Source: Marinobacter sp. SS21 (lineage in GTDB: Bacteria > Pseudomonadota > Gammaproteobacteria > Pseudomonadales > Oleiphilaceae). From it: 64,000 nt of DNA. The stretch is taken from NCBI RefSeq assembly GCF_028369065.1, contig NZ_JAQNDA010000008.1:124001-188000 (forward strand). Reading direction: 5' to 3'. Of the stretch, positions 40-9,022 are shown one piece after another. A program made the translations under genes and the position numbers. Within the stretch, counting starts at the first letter, position 1, and each line of letters opens with the position of its first letter. The notes below the pieces were generated by a model. The model ran no database searches. It was not told where the DNA came from and saw only the letters and a list, made by a program, of their open reading frames with translations.

Positions 40-113
40 GGCGCGGTGGCAGAGTGGTTATGCAGCGGACTGCAACTCCGTGTACGCCGGTTCGATTCCG
101 ACCCGCGCCTCCA
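40..113 (+). tRNA. tRNA-Cys (GCA)
   Basis: A complete cloverleaf can be folded. The acceptor stem pairs GGCGCGG with CCGCGCC, the anticodon stem GCGGA (65-69) pairs with TCCGT (77-81), and the loop CTGCAAC places anticodon GCA at 72-74. The T arm reads GCCGG-TTCGATT-CCGAC. The CCA end is encoded at 111-113. It stands alone with no other tRNA in the window and borders an accessory region; I saw no second copy of its 3' end that would mark an integrated element. Confidence 0.96.
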
Positions 114-266: not shown

Positions 267-1148
267 TTAGCGGTCCGTTGTGATCAGAAAAACAGCCTCT
301 TGCTCTAACGCTTTACCGCTCAGCTTAAGGGCCTCAATAAGCTCCAACACCTCATCCGGCTCCTGATCCAAATTTAAATTTTCCTCGGCATTGGCAACAT
401 AGTTAAGATTATTTCGCCATACCTCAGAATTGCCATAGCGCTCCAATTTGCGTTTCCAGTCAGGCATTAGCCATAGTTCGATGTGGTCGCCCAGCGCTTT
501 GCGCAGGCGGGCATAGTTTTCGAGTCCGACGCCATCATAGTCTGGAAAGATAACAATCCGTGGACTTCGTTTTTTCCCGCATAGCCAGTCTATCAGCCGT
601 TCACTGAGCTGGCCCTGATAATAGAGTACAGACCCGTGCAAGCCTTCAGGCACCCAGCTGGTGTCATCCAGCAACCCCTGATTTTCCACCAGCCACAATG
701 GGCTGTCGGTGGCCAGAGGCGTTTCATTCTGGCTGATATCGATGGCGAGGGCGCCGGCGATTGATGTCAGCTGCCATAGGTCGAGCAACTCTCTATCACT
801 ATTCCAGGTTACGCCCGGCATTGTTGCCTTCAGTAGGCGGTAAGAAGCGGCGTGTGAACTCTTTCGACCTTTGGTGGACCGGGTAAACGCGAGGTTTTGT
901 GCCCGGACTGGATGCGCCTTGTTGGCAGGCTCTGCATCGGGCCGTAACTCCCTAAGATGTTGCTCAAACACCGGTGAGTTGCTGATGCGATAAACGAAGC
1001 CATTGCCCTGACGCATCTTGGTGACACATGCGGTGCTGCGGAGGAACTCGTCAAGCACCCGCTTCTGTGAGGGCGTGAACCGTGATCCAGGACATTCTCC
1101 GCCGGAATCCTCAAGTTTGACCAATGCTTCTCTGAGTGACCTGTTCAT
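267..1148 (-). CDS. JetD/MksG-like Toprim protein (Wadjet subunit D type)
   Basis: In Wadjet and MksBEFG systems subunit D is the Toprim nuclease that cleaves DNA extruded by the SMC complex. Here a Toprim-like core is visible: a Glu in LVENQG (about residue 155 from this start), a YYQGQ strand, then VIFPDYDGVGL with the paired Asp residues, and later LWLMPDW. The N-terminal third resembles a winged-helix/arm region. At about 293 residues it is shorter than the 380-400 I expect for JetD. I chose ATG 1148, which lies 11 nt past the stop of the upstream gene; an in-frame TTG at 1178 would overlap that gene by 20 nt. Neither has a strong Shine-Dalgarno. It follows a JetA/JetC-like fusion in the normal A-B-C-D gene order. 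The family call rests on motif pattern and context. Confidence 0.62.
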   Translation of the reverse strand: MNRSLREALVKLEDSGGECPGSRFTPSQKRVLDEFLRSTACVTKMRQGNGFVYRISNSPVFEQHLRELRPDAEPANKAHPVRAQNLAFTRSTKGRKSSHAASYRLLKATMPGVTWNSDRELLDLWQLTSIAGALAIDISQNETPLATDSPLWLVENQGLLDDTSWVPEGLHGSVLYYQGQLSERLIDWLCGKKRSPRIVIFPDYDGVGLENYARLRKALGDHIELWLMPDWKRKLERYGNSEVWRNNLNYVANAEENLNLDQEPDEVLELIEALKLSGKALEQEAVFLITTDR

Positions 1149-1158
1149 GAGGGCGAGC

Positions 1159-2466
1159 TCATGCCTCGACAGCTTCAAGCGGCTGCAGAATCTGCCAATG
1201 CTTGCGGCTGATGTGGTTTTTTCCGTTGCTCAACTGTTGGATAGGAACGCAGTAATGGGCGGTAATCAACGGAGAAGGGGAGGCGAACATTAGCGCGAAT
1301 CCGAATTCGGAAGCGGTTTTGATCAAGCTTCTCTGGTTGGCCGAATCCAGGGCCAGGGCTTCGTCCAAGTAGCAAAGAGCTTGAACATTTCGGCTCTTGT
1401 CCTGCATCAGGTGGAGCATGGCCAGGCCGGTCACCAACTTTGCCATGAGCACGGTGCCGTTGGAAGCTGCACTATCAATGTCGTCAAAGCTTTCCACGTC
1501 CTGATTTTCTTTGCCTAACTCGAAAGTGAGGCGAAACAAATCCGCAACCTTCAGCCCGTGGCGAGCGCTACCTTCATCAATCAGTAACTGGCGCGCGTGG
1601 TCCAGTTGTCGGTCGTCCAGCACAGTAGCCTGGTTAAACAGTTCGAAGGATTCACCGGACTCCACTTTTTCTGCTGTTTGGATCAGCAAGTCTATCGCTT
1701 CTACAAGGTGATTCTCGTGAATCGGCTGAATGCGGATTACCTTGAGGTCTGACAACTTCCTGCGGCTGATCAGACGGTTGAATTCATGCATGGCATTCTC
1801 GAATGAATGCAGGTTGCCTCGAACCAGGCGATTGTAGCCGAGGTCGAGGGCGTCTTCCGCTGCGGCGAGGTGGTGGTAGAAAATGCCGGAAGGCCCGGAA
1901 TCCATCATCTCGTTCATCGGTTCAACATACTGGTCGTAGGCGTCGAGGACCGACTTGTAGCGTTTTGCGATGGGTGCCCGGGTGTCTGCTGATTTTGCTT
2001 GCTCGGCCAGCTCAGCAATCGCATGGCGGTCCTGCTCGAGCTGACGGGCAATATCTCTGAACAGGGTAGATAGCCGGCTAATGGCTTGAGTCTGCTGACC
2101 GGTATCTCCGGCTTCGATACCTGCGGTGAGGGTCTCTGTCGCGCCACGAATGGCTTCGATGCGCGCCTGAATGACTGACGACAGTCCTAGTTCGTGTTCA
2201 TGGGTCAGACCACGTACAAATTCAAGCACATGGGCATTGACCACGAAGCTCTCAGAGCGACTTTGAACCTCCAGTACGCCACCTGACAAAAGCCTGCGTA
2301 GAGCGTCTCTGACTTGAATGTCGTCCAGGGCCGGTTGAGCCTGGCGAATGGCAGCAAGAACCTGCTCGTCGGAGAACGCCGGCATCTCCCGGGTGGCCCG
2401 CACCAGTGCCTCGACAGTTTCCCATTGCTCAAACAGTGTTCGAGTGAGGTGTTTGGGGCTAGCCAT
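1159..2466 (-). pseudogene. in-frame fusion of JetA-like (kleisin) N-terminus to JetC-like (SMC ATPase) C-terminus
   Basis: The open frame is 435 codons with no stop. Residues 1-190 look like a JetA/MksF kleisin: a winged-helix segment (about 10-80), then long helices ending in RYKSVLDAYDQYVEPMNEM. Residues from about 222 look like the C-terminal end of an SMC ATPase: FNRLISRRKLSD, an ABC-signature-like SAASNGT (332-338), a Walker-B-like ALCYLDEALALD (363-374), and a following FGFALMFASP strand. No Walker A motif is present. JetB and most of JetC are absent, as if one deletion joined jetA to the 3' end of jetC. The upstream VapC stop is 5 nt away. It could instead be a real short family member; alignment of the two halves would decide. 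Function unknown; it cannot hydrolyse ATP as an SMC by itself. Confidence 0.58.
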
Positions 2467-2471
2467 GGTGC

Positions 2472-2906
2472 TCAGTCGCCCTTTGAAGCAAGGCGGGCGT
2501 CTATACCGAAGAAAACGGCCGCGTTCACGAGCGCTTCGTCCTCACTGATTAGTTGAGCCCCGCGATGTTCTGCGCATGCCAGGTGAAGTGCATCCAACGT
2601 CCTCAAGCTTGTCTTTCTTGTGCCAATCCAGTGGCTGGCCCGTTGATAGTGGGCCGTTTCAATGGGGCACAGGCTGAAGCGCCCATGGCTGACGTCATCA
2701 TGGAATGCACTTTCGATCCGATTCGCCTGGGGTTCGCTGAGTTCTCCCATCCGAACCCATCGGGCCAATGCGCTTGCCACCTCGACTTCCGTCAGATGAC
2801 TGATAAGAACCGGCTGGGTTTGCGACCCAAGCAATGCCTGAACACGATCGCTAGCATGCTCTTGTCTGTAGTAGGGGAGAACAGCGCTGGTATCGAAGTA
2901 CAACAT
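2472..2906 (-). CDS. PIN-domain toxin (VapC-like)
   Basis: PIN toxins are Mg-dependent RNases held inactive by a cognate antitoxin. The 144-residue length fits. Conserved acidic residues are visible in MLYFDTSAVLPYY (Asp5), LTEVEVASAL, RTLDALHLA and LISEDEALV. The start ATG shares its A with the stop of the antitoxin gene (TAATG at 2908-2904), so translation is probably coupled. The gene lies directly upstream of the Wadjet-like remnant on the same strand, consistent with a defence-type accessory cluster. Confidence 0.85.
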   Translation of the reverse strand: MLYFDTSAVLPYYRQEHASDRVQALLGSQTQPVLISHLTEVEVASALARWVRMGELSEPQANRIESAFHDDVSHGRFSLCPIETAHYQRASHWIGTRKTSLRTLDALHLACAEHRGAQLISEDEALVNAAVFFGIDARLASKGD

Positions 2907-3142
2907 TAATAGCGCTCTTCATCTCTGAGTTCCCGCACCGCATGGGCAGAGCTTTCCTGGACCGGTGGCAGTGATGCCCTGAGTTCCGAACGGTTTGGAA
3001 ACTGAATCTTTTCGGGCAAGGCCGCGGTCAGGCGTGCGGCAGGTTTGCCGTGGCGCAGAATCACAACCTCTTCTCCTGCGGCCACCGCGTCCAAAAGATT
3101 TGAGAGCTTTTCCCGAGTTTCCCGAACATTGATCGTTTGCAT
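2906..3142 (-). CDS. Phd/YefM-type antitoxin
   Basis: The protein (78 residues from this start) begins MQTINVRETREKLSNLLDAV and continues EEVVILRHGKPAARL, the standard Phd/YefM DNA-binding fold in which the N-terminus binds the operator and the C-terminal tail wraps the toxin. ATG 3142 is preferred over GTG 3166 because AGGGTGAG lies about 4-11 nt upstream of it. It pairs with the PIN toxin through a TAATG overlap. It is probably an autorepressor acting on the repeats just upstream. Confidence 0.85.
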   Translation of the reverse strand: MQTINVRETREKLSNLLDAVAAGEEVVILRHGKPAARLTAALPEKIQFPNRSELRASLPPVQESSAHAVRELRDEERY

Positions 3143-3158
3143 GAATCTCACCCTATTT

Positions 3159-3178
3159 GTGTACACAATGAGTGTACT
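3159..3178. promoter_or_regulatory. candidate toxin-antitoxin operator
   Basis: Two GTGTAC-containing blocks (GTGTACAC and AGTGTACT) sit 4 nt apart, starting about 17 nt upstream of the antitoxin ATG. GTGTACAC is itself palindromic. Phd-type antitoxins usually bind such repeats to repress their own operon. This is seen as repeats only; binding is inferred. Confidence 0.4.
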
Positions 3179-3235: not shown

Positions 3236-3418
3236 TCACTCAGAAACTTTCTGTTCCCGCTCAAATCTGATCGTTGTCCGCGCCCGCTTCGGTGGCTTGA
3301 TCAACCGATAATGATTCCGCATAGCCTCCGTTTCATGGCCGCCTTTGTCATTTTCTCCTTGGCTCAGGAATTCTTCAGTCAGTCCTTTCTTGCGGAGGTC
3401 TCTGAGGTCGTACATTCC
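3236..3418 (-). pseudogene. C-terminal fragment of a tyrosine recombinase (integrase)
   Basis: Read on the minus strand, about 60 codons give GMYDLRDLRKKGLTEEF, then GENDKGGHETEAMRNHYR, then LIKPPKRARTTI and a stop at 3236-3238. DLR, GGHETEAM and the HY pair match the Arg, His and catalytic Tyr boxes at the end of phage-type integrases. No start codon or N-terminal catalytic part is in frame upstream, so this is a broken tail. It marks past integration in this region. Confidence 0.68.
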
Positions 3419-3470
3419 GCCATAGCCGGCTTTCTTACACGGCTCTCTCCAAGCGGCTTGGTTTTACTTG

Positions 3471-3600
3471 CTGTGTCGTTTTCGCCTTGACTCAGATACT
3501 CGTCCATCAGACCTTTCTTGCGCAGCTCCCGCATTCCGATCACATGCTGGCTTATTACTGCTTCAGTTCCGGGTTTATCCAACGTCAGCTTTATTAACAC
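3471..3600 (-). pseudogene. second, diverged integrase fragment
   Basis: The minus strand here encodes IGMRELRKKGLMDEY followed by LSQGEND, parallel to the fragment at 3236-3418 (GMYDLRDLRKKGLTEEF, LSQGEND) about 125 nt away. The DNA differences between the two copies are concentrated at third codon positions, so both probably came from once-functional, separately evolving integrases rather than a recent local duplication. After GEND the similarity stops and the frame runs out at a TGA (3379-3381) that lies inside the other fragment. Confidence 0.55.
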
Positions 3601-3883: not shown

Positions 3884-4141
3884 ATGGGTTCGATCAATCG
3901 ACGGATTTACCAATGGCTGCTTGCAGCCGTGTTCGTAAGCTTGGCGTCGTCCGCTAACGCGTTATGGTTCGGTGGTGGCGATGAGGATGGCGCTTATACA
4001 TTTCCTGAACTCATTGATTATGACAAGCACCATGATCACGATAATGGTGATGAAGTAGAGGTCCCGGAACCAGGCACCATCGCGTTGCTTGGGCTCGGGT
4101 TGCTGGGAATCGGCATTGCGAGAAGCCGGCGCAAGCGTTAG
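3884..4141 (+). CDS. short PEP-CTERM sorting-domain protein
   Basis: This is an 85-residue exported protein, probably processed by an exosortase. It has a signal peptide (residues 1-27, ending SSANA), a mature part of only about 32 residues rich in Asp, Glu and His (DYDKHHDHDNGDEVEV), and a C-terminal signal VPEPGTIALLGLGLLGIG with the basic tail RSRRKR. GGAGGGT lies about 6-12 nt before the ATG. The acidic/His stretch might bind metal. No exosortase is in the window. A sigma-54 promoter lies upstream and a strong terminator downstream, so it is a single-gene unit. Confidence 0.85.
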   Translation: MGSINRRIYQWLLAAVFVSLASSANALWFGGGDEDGAYTFPELIDYDKHHDHDNGDEVEVPEPGTIALLGLGLLGIGIARSRRKR

Positions 4142-7417: not shown

Positions 7418-9022
7418 TCAGGCTTTGTCGTCGCGGATCAGGGTTCCAGGGTTGAGTAACCGGTCCGGGTCGAAACTTTGGCACAGTGCGTGAATCGCCC
7501 GCATACCGAGCTCGCCTTTCTCCACCGGCAGGTAGGGCGCATGGTCCTTGCCAACACCGTGCTGATGGCTGATGGTGCCCCGGTTCTCCACGATGACCCG
7601 GGAGGTCTCATGCTTGAGGTGTTTCCAGCGCTCCAGCGTGTTGGCGTAGCTGCTGCCGTTGCGGAACACGTAGGTGGTGTAAATGCTGCAGCCCTGACCG
7701 TAGAAGTGAGACAGGTGGGTGAAGACATGAACCTTCTCCCCAAAATCCGCGAGGCCATCCCGCAGGGTGCCTTCCATCCGATTGAGCAGGTGATCGACAT
7801 TGTCCCAATCGGTGGCGGTCTCGAGGGTATCCACGGCGTACCCCAGTTGCCAGAGCGCTTCCCGCAGATAGGGCATGGTAAATCGTTTCTCGGCCCACTT
7901 CGCGCCCAGATAGGTGCCGGTATACACACCTTCCTGTTTGGCGCAGATCCGGCGGGCTTCGCGCAGCGCCGCGGTGCACTGCTGACGACTGCCGGTGAGT
8001 CCGAACGTCATCATGCATTTTTGATTCCCGGCGCCTCGGAACGACAGGTAAGCCTCCAGCAGCCGAATCTGGTGGGGGTGTCCCGCCAGCGCCAGTTGGG
8101 TTTCGGTTTCGATGGCATTGCTCAGCCGCAGCATGGACAGCTGCACCTTGCTCTGAACCAGGGCCCGGGCTGCCGTGCGGGCCTGCTCCCAGGTCGGGAA
8201 AAAGGTGACGTGGAAGCTCTCCTGATCCGCCAGGGGGGTCGCCCGTACTTTAACTTCGGTGAGGATGCCGAGCCGCCCCTCGGAGCCGAGGATCATCTCT
8301 CGAATGTCCGGACCTGCGCTGGACGCCGGGAAAGTGGGAATATCCAGCGAGCCTTGCAGGGTTTCGATCCGGCCACCGGCGAACAGTTGCTCGATGCGAC
8401 CATAGCGCAGGGATTGCTGGCCGCTGGAGCGACTCGCTACCCAGCCGCCCAGGGTTGATAATTCAAACGACTGGGGAAAGTGCCCCAGGGTGTACCCTTT
8501 AGCCCGCAGCTGGGATTCCACCAGCGGCCCCGGCGTGCCCGCGCCAAAGGTGGCGATCTGGCTCTCCGGGTCGAAGTCCATCAGCTGGTTCATGCGCCCC
8601 ATATCCACGGTCAGCACGGGGCGGGTGTCGGCGAGGGGATTGATATGGCCAGCGACGCTGGTGCCACCGCCATAGGGGATCAGGGTGATTTCATGACGCT
8701 GGGCATACTGGAGCAGGTCCCGAACCTCGTCGCTGTTCTTTGGTTGCGCCACCCCGTCGGGGAACACGCCGATGTCGCCACTGCGCACGGCGAGCCAGTC
8801 GGGAAGACTCTGACCGCGGGCGTGACGGACCCGGGTTTCGGCCGAGGTATCGATGAGCGGGTGGTCGGCAAGACGGCTGGCGGGTACTCGCTCACAGACC
8901 GTGGCCAGCTCGGTATCTGACAGGGCCTGGCCCGGGCCGATTCGTTCCGACAGGAACTGATGGCCCTGTGGTGGCAGGTCCAGGTGAAATTGATCATCGC
9001 CCCAGCCGTTCCAGCGTCTCAT
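7418..9022 (-). CDS. FAD-binding oxidase, alkyl-dihydroxyacetonephosphate synthase-like
   Basis: The family member AGPS swaps the acyl chain of acyl-DHAP for a fatty alcohol to make ether lipids; bacterial relatives are largely uncharacterised. The N-terminus RRWNGWGDD, the FAD-binding PYGGGTSVAGH, the ELSTLGGWVASRSSGQQSLRYG loop region, a HVFTHLSHFYGQGCSIYTTY segment and the terminal ISHQHGVGKDHAPYL are typical of AGPS rather than of GlcD. AGGAGA precedes the ATG by 10-12 nt. It heads an operon with GlpD-like and FGGY kinase genes. No DHAP acyltransferase is nearby, so the substrate is open. Confidence 0.8.
   Translation of the reverse strand: MRRWNGWGDDQFHLDLPPQGHQFLSERIGPGQALSDTELATVCERVPASRLADHPLIDTSAETRVRHARGQSLPDWLAVRSGDIGVFPDGVAQPKNSDEVRDLLQYAQRHEITLIPYGGGTSVAGHINPLADTRPVLTVDMGRMNQLMDFDPESQIATFGAGTPGPLVESQLRAKGYTLGHFPQSFELSTLGGWVASRSSGQQSLRYGRIEQLFAGGRIETLQGSLDIPTFPASSAGPDIREMILGSEGRLGILTEVKVRATPLADQESFHVTFFPTWEQARTAARALVQSKVQLSMLRLSNAIETETQLALAGHPHQIRLLEAYLSFRGAGNQKCMMTFGLTGSRQQCTAALREARRICAKQEGVYTGTYLGAKWAEKRFTMPYLREALWQLGYAVDTLETATDWDNVDHLLNRMEGTLRDGLADFGEKVHVFTHLSHFYGQGCSIYTTYVFRNGSSYANTLERWKHLKHETSRVIVENRGTISHQHGVGKDHAPYLPVEKGELGMRAIHALCQSFDPDRLLNPGTLIRDDKA

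Follow-up and report, generated by a model that had tools for sequence, protein, structure and literature searches.

Does a reading frame that starts as one subunit of a condensin-like machine and ends as another encode a new protein, or is it what a deletion has left of an operon? This question is raised by the minus strand of the window, by which we mean the whole stretch of 64,000 nucleotides of Marinobacter sp. SS21 DNA that was analysed. An earlier note, made from the letters alone, had described a 435-codon frame at 1159-2466 with a kleisin-like start, an end resembling the C-terminal part of an SMC ATPase and no Walker A motif. The reading of open frames confirmed that this frame exists and is open. 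In searches against family models each half was found to match its own Mks subunit: residues 1-203 align with positions 1-201 of 412 of NCBIfam model NF040857, a kleisin-size Mks subunit (E 3.1e-19), and residues 213-425 with positions 705-922 of 926 of NF040859, an SMC-size Mks subunit (E 1.7e-28). Both halves score below the curated cut-offs of these models (750 and 1900 bits), as do the complete homologues of the related locus L030 (112 and 347 bits). A single fused family of about 435 residues was also considered and rejected; no Pfam, PADLOC or NCBIfam model spans both halves. The SMC-like half contains SAASNGT, which we take to be the SMC signature motif, and CYLDEA, presumably the Walker B motif. 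In the complete SMC of a relative the matches to ATPase and P-loop families are N-terminal (AAA_15 from residue 17, slightly over the cut-off; AAA_29 at residues 9-56, below the cut-off). This region is absent from the fusion, and the hinge has probably been lost as well. The frame corresponds to the beginning of the kleisin and the end of the SMC protein of an MksBEFG-type (Wadjet-like) operon. NCBIfam names NF040857 MksB and NF040859 MksF, opposite to the usage in an excerpt of PMC10123090, and therefore the terms kleisin and SMC are used here.

Features of the locus, in window coordinates
Feature	Position	Strand	Evidence
tRNA-Cys flanking the operon	40..113	+	tRNA scan
MksG, JetD-like, DUF7281/Toprim nuclease, 303 aa, full length	267..1178	-	PF23947 above cut-off
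SMC ATPase, C-terminal part, residues 704-923	1159..1821	-	NF040859; 923-aa SMC frames in relatives
Deletion joint, codon 215, one T fitting both parents	1822..1824	-	alignment to relatives
Kleisin (MukF-like) part, residues 1-215; 216-424 missing	1822..2466	-	NF040857
PIN-domain toxin, 144 aa, frame intact	2472..2906	-	PF01850 E 4.9e-15
Phd/YefM-type antitoxin, at most 86 aa (inner start possible)	2906..3166	-	PF02604 E 9.7e-11; TIGR01552 above cut-off
Integrase-like gene remnant, residues 350-423 of 423, and degenerate second copy of 368-387	3239..3534	-	tblastn 92%, 75% (L069)

Genome contigs of 84,980 species, with one genome per species, were searched, which yielded 40 loci, and the nine closest (L025-L033; eight titled as Marinobacter and one as Kineobactrum) were aligned with the window. 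In all nine alignments the window falls into two blocks that meet at 1823-1825, where the kleisin block ends and the SMC block starts. The gap between the blocks, in alignment coordinates, amounts to 3321 nt in seven of the nine loci, 3319 nt in L025 and 3311 nt in L033, and the relatives have in this interval the remainder of the kleisin gene, the whole of mksE and the greater part of the SMC gene. Frames are broken in L025 (kleisin and SMC) and in L033 (MksE); in the other seven loci they are open. The relatives carry the full operon, which reads antitoxin, PIN, kleisin (424 aa), MksE (197 aa), SMC (923 aa) and MksG (303 aa), with the four Mks genes in the order that the earlier note had assumed. 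At the joint the letters follow the kleisin gene up to codon 215 and the SMC gene from codon 704, with one T common to both. Nucleotide identity to the undeleted loci is about 84-93% on both sides of the sharp joint, and the coding segments compared with the relatives contain no gaps. For the kleisin part the identity is 90-94% to eight relatives, 89% to Kineobactrum and 81% to genome G064; genome G036 was left out of this comparison because of gaps. The fusion is the product of one deletion from an undeleted homologous operon. The earlier note was right about the single event and misplaced its far end: the SMC part starts at residue 704 of 923, so that about a quarter of the protein is left, and not near the end of the gene. 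The length of 3321 nt is a multiple of 3 (four loci checked). A repeat-mediated deletion was considered and rejected, since the longest words shared within 60 nt of the ends (four loci) are 7-8 nt, the same as in 200 shuffles of one locus. Chance keeps the frame in one of three deletions, and therefore an open frame by itself says little for selection.

A functional system of this kind comprises an SMC ATPase with both head parts, coiled coil and hinge, a complete kleisin, the kite subunit MksE/JetB and the Toprim nuclease MksG/JetD. The window holds the nuclease frame, the SMC residues 704-923 of 923 and the kleisin residues 1-215 of 424; mksE lies entirely inside the deleted stretch, and no MksE match was found within a 16-kb stretch around the locus (L069). 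The assembly of the window genome (completeness 99.69%) yielded no second Mks SMC, and we infer that the MksBEF motor cannot be built in this genome. It encodes a housekeeping SMC of 1179 aa above the family cut-off, and therefore chromosome organisation would not need to suffer.

The last 20 nt of the fusion are also the first 20 nt of mksG, an overlap seen in L030 as well. The earlier description of an intact JetD-like Toprim neighbour agrees with the alignment of this protein to 303-aa homologues across 302 of its 303 residues. With an E-value of 0.001 against the PADLOC model JetD1, its sequence offers modest evidence for a relation to JetD/MksG. An AlphaFold2 model built from 34 rows (mean pLDDT 83.4, pTM 0.63) had its best solved-structure matches, using Foldseek, in MksG (8b7f, E 2.0e-5), JetD (7til, 5.2e-5) and topoisomerase VI A (1d3y, 1.3e-4), with poor superposition in each case (TM-scores of 0.36, 0.30 and 0.41, and 0.30-0.43 overall, normalised by query). 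A sequence search of solved structures with the single proteins gave no useful match. None of the 34 rows, two of which come from one genome, varies at E165, D213, D215, E292 or E294. By order along the chain, these acidic residues would correspond to E236, D279, E349 and E351 of C. glutamicum MksG. According to an excerpt of PMC10123090, the C. glutamicum protein cuts DNA in vitro without MksBEF and binds the kleisin, and therefore, by analogy, the orphan MksG of the window could still be active.

Overall confidence in the AlphaFold2 model of the fusion is low (mean pLDDT 61.6, pTM 0.38), and the model was obtained from a shallow alignment consisting of twelve copies of the window row and ten fragments per parent. 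Residues 1-150 mostly reach a pLDDT of 70-91, dropping to 52-61 between residues 81 and 100. In the ATPase half-lobe (residues 329-435) most residues stay below 50. Poor modelling is expected of an SMC half-head whose other half is missing, and the alignment is shallow here. Among solved structures this low-confidence model matched best with MukF(1-287) (1t98, E 8.2e-4, the sole match at or below 0.001), followed by the MukF N-terminal domain 3rpu (E 1.9e-3); the TM-score was 0.33, normalised by query.

To compare the constraint on the window copy with that on its relatives we used codon maximum likelihood with 12 taxa (custom script, stopped at 60 iterations); the row of G036 contained kleisin residues 2-137, with the remainder entered as gaps. 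For the fusion, omega was 0.080 on the window branch versus 0.057 in the background, which is not a significant difference (lnL -4916.45 versus -4916.90, 2 delta lnL 0.9), and an omega of 1 on the window branch was rejected (lnL -4954.32, 2 delta lnL 75.7). The same pattern was obtained with MksG (0.32 versus 0.24, not significant; omega 1 rejected with lnL -4511.17 against -4506.49) and with the PIN toxin (0.089 versus 0.076, not significant; omega 1 rejected with -1950.29 against -1934.57). The trees of the segments disagree, and therefore recombination among the loci blurs the branch lengths. Singleton codons of the fusion were 20 synonymous and 9 nonsynonymous versus 190 and 52 (p 0.25), those of MksG 6 and 9 versus 156 and 115 (p 0.19). 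Of the 39 columns of the kleisin part that are invariant in the other rows (43 rows including that of the window) none is changed in the window, of the 71 of the SMC part (40 rows) one, and of the 44 of MksG (38 rows) none. Rows with an internal stop or less than 85% coverage had been dropped, which left 42, 39 and 37 of the 43 loci, respectively, with two genomes counted twice (L032 = L104, L027 = L112). The loci L025-L032 are the same genomes as eight of those in the genus survey described below, and the counts are not independent. Judged from these sequences, constraint along the window lineage is not detectably lower than in the relatives, which would fit a young event or a kept function. 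The low omega and the nearly unchanged invariant columns leave two readings: a deletion that is recent compared with the length of the branch, or constraint on the fused product. If the fusion has evolved neutrally since the deletion, omega arithmetic gives about 2% of the branch, as a point estimate, for the time after it.

The earlier note had offered two possibilities, a recent event or a shortened pair retained for a new purpose. Such a purpose could be that a MukF-like dimer with an SMC half-head holds, silences or positions MksG without ATP. The open frame, constrained across the whole branch, a full-length MksG with its acidic residues, the abilities of C. glutamicum MksG reported in the excerpt of PMC10123090 and an in-frame join that preserves the overlap with mksG would all suit this proposal. 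A young deletion, however, gives an equally low branch omega, the half-lobe is predicted to be poorly folded (from the shallow alignment), and a second carrier was found neither in the 123 other genomes of the genus nor among the 40 loci nor in the six plasmid records with a match. One of these records, a Salinibacter plasmid matching query residues 98-423, was examined as a candidate fusion and contains a single SMC-size gene of 2640 nt; the other five matches span about half of the query. Viral contigs contained no relatives of the fusion. We regard a new use of the fusion as unlikely. With no second carrier found and a poorly modelled half-lobe, youth was taken as the likelier of the two readings of the constraint; the window genome is the sole representative of its species in the comparison. 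Of the earlier alternative, the recent event is favoured and the new purpose found no support.

The same observations bear on the remaining explanations. An assembly artefact, with 3.3 kb missing from the contig and an undeleted operon in the organism itself, would account for a remaining locus that appears intact; but neither end lies in a repeat of misleading length, as indicated by the short shared words, and no other Mks SMC match occurs in a nearly complete assembly, so that we consider it very improbable. That the two domains were fused long ago, or that the compact form is the ancestral one, might be suggested by the common frame of both halves. The close nucleotide identity to undeleted loci on either side of a sharp joint, in coding segments free of gaps, leaves this explanation with next to no credibility. 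A further proposal is that selection favours Mks operons collapsing into in-frame fusions of the kleisin: the fusion, as a MukF-like dimer, would keep MksG harmless or aimed without the motor, the Phd-PIN pair would make complete loss costly, and the operon would shrink from within. We hold this to be decidedly unlikely.

The operon is transcribed from the minus strand in the order antitoxin, PIN toxin, fusion and MksG. Judged by its sequence, the Phd/YefM antitoxin gene followed by the PIN gene in one operon qualifies as a type II toxin-antitoxin pair, with toxicity and its neutralisation predicted. A PIN gene is present in all ten genomes of the genus with separate kleisin and SMC genes and in the window genome (G000); in those ten genomes and in the Kineobactrum locus (L033) the Phd-PIN pair lies ahead of the kleisin gene, and it is kept also where the Mks genes are truncated. 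In the 31 more distant Mks loci (L034-L064) neither the antitoxin nor the PIN query found a match, though the upstream DNA of L043, L053 and L054 is too short for this comparison. The complete relative of the integrase-like remnant (423 aa) matches PHROG integrases (4.4e-5 and 2.1e-4) and the Pfam phage integrase only with E 0.062. Between the remnant and glpK an 85-aa frame on the plus strand (3884-4141) scores above the cut-off of TIGR02595, the model of the PEP-CTERM sorting motif.

Besides tRNA-Cys, a tRNA-Gly is located just outside the window edge. The tRNA scan covered nine of the ten separate-gene genomes, G010 being left out, and in seven of these nine (G035, G036, G064, G085, G087, G151 and G158) tRNA-Cys, tRNA-Gly and mla genes adjoin the operon; in G014 and G174 no tRNA occurs within the fetched stretch. 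Both tRNAs are found in G000 and G042, with mla genes in G042 and none within the G000 stretch (L069). In G006 both are absent from the fetched stretch, and this locus may sit elsewhere or be rearranged. In G056, G066 and G170 the toxin-antitoxin pair adjoins both tRNAs and mla without Mks genes, and the PIN frame of G066 and G170 matches to residue 140 only. These three sites represent either loss or an operon that was never there and were excluded from the deletion count. G004 and G163 contain the pair without a tRNA or mla flank in the fetched stretch, G015 and G081 just a damaged PIN gene. The toxin-antitoxin and Mks block of Kineobactrum sediminis (L033, 1387-7676) shows about 84-88% DNA identity to the window, and no tRNA was detected in its 12.7-kb stretch; this suggests horizontal transfer or a misnamed record.

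To look for other lesions, 124 genomes of the genus were searched with three proteins each. The PIN query matched in 20 of them, the fusion query in 13 and the MksG query in 12. Separate kleisin and SMC matches were obtained in ten genomes (G010, G014, G035, G036, G064, G085, G087, G151, G158 and G174); the remaining matches of the fusion query are G000 and kleisin pieces in G006 and G062, the latter just 49% identical and without a PIN gene. MksG was detected in the ten separate-gene genomes, in G000 and as a piece of 51 residues in G042; in G064 its final few residues differ, beyond a stop. In G042 (L079, about 7955-8167) kleisin codons 1-18 are joined in frame to MksG codons 253-303, giving 68 codons. 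G006 has kept kleisin residues 1-94, with a stop soon after, and in G036 the kleisin, SMC and integrase genes are frameshifted, possibly in part by sequencing error. With the truncations in G042 and G006 and the frameshifts in G036, in addition to the window, the Mks operon undergoes repeated decay in the genus. Both gene-to-gene joins (G000 and G042) are in frame, for which the expectation by chance is one in nine.

Very probably, then, the locus is a decayed MksBEFG operon that lost its defence function through one deletion of 3321 nt, and the fusion is recent and most likely an inert remnant. Gone with the deletion are the latter half of the kleisin gene, the whole of mksE and three quarters of the SMC gene, counted from its start. 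Without the N-terminal ATPase region and hinge of the SMC protein, MksE and the C-terminus of the kleisin there would be no ATP-driven loop extrusion; MksG would no longer be delivered to plasmids, and plasmid defence would be lost. What remains of the fusion may still be a MukF-like dimer. A newly acquired plasmid of benefit to the cell may have favoured this loss, and the Phd-PIN pair was perhaps retained because loss of the antitoxin is costly. Against decay counts that no marks of it were found besides the deletion: the frame is open and the invariant columns are nearly unchanged. The in-frame state of both gene-to-gene joins also counts against it. The role of this Mks subfamily in plasmid defence is taken from relatives and would hold by analogy.

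A close counterpart is the plasmid-defence condensin MksBEFG of the C. glutamicum type (described in the excerpt of PMC10123090). The undeleted loci share with it the order kleisin, MksE (PF21980 above cut-off), SMC and MksG, and 8b7f is the best match by E-value of the MksG model. The window copy differs in that it lacks MksE and retains half of the kleisin and a quarter of the SMC protein, and its MksG has 303 aa versus 368 residues in the 8b7f chain (rmsd 18.6). With Wadjet JetABCD (7til, 8dk2) the operon has in common four genes including a JetD-like nuclease. The complete relative L030 gave weak PADLOC matches (JetC1 1.6e-5, JetB1 0.015, JetD1 4.1e-4, JetD3 5.2e-4), which are too weak for type I, II or III; its SMC scored better with AriA (1.8e-7) than with JetC1, its kleisin matched no PADLOC model, and the window copy is incomplete. 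The MukF N-terminal domain, although the best match of the fusion model, shares 12-13% identity with it, and the kleisin part of the fusion is joined to an SMC fragment. Losses of SMC-based anti-plasmid systems have been described. In an excerpt of PMC12287153, a spontaneous mutant of C. cellulovorans carries three deletions, of which one spans about 23 kb and takes in jetABCD, and conjugation is reduced by about 5 logs when jetABCD is present. An M. smegmatis Ept null strain shows high plasmid uptake, as stated in a passage of PMC10586767, a secondary source. The window is alike in the loss of such a system by deletion or null mutation, and differs from these cases, as far as the excerpts describe them, in that its deletion is internal and in frame and the nuclease gene is retained. 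Among the titles listed in literature searches on MksBEFG, Wadjet, EptABCD, Marinobacter and incomplete condensins, none referred to this locus or to such a fusion.

The mechanism is most likely the ordinary gene decay of a known kind of system. As a naturally occurring knock-out, in which an anti-plasmid machine of the SMC type has kept its nuclease gene, the locus would allow one to study the role of MksG without the motor. Taken with the varied lesions of one operon within one genus, in which the toxin-antitoxin pair is kept, it would constitute a small natural experiment on the loss of a costly defence operon.
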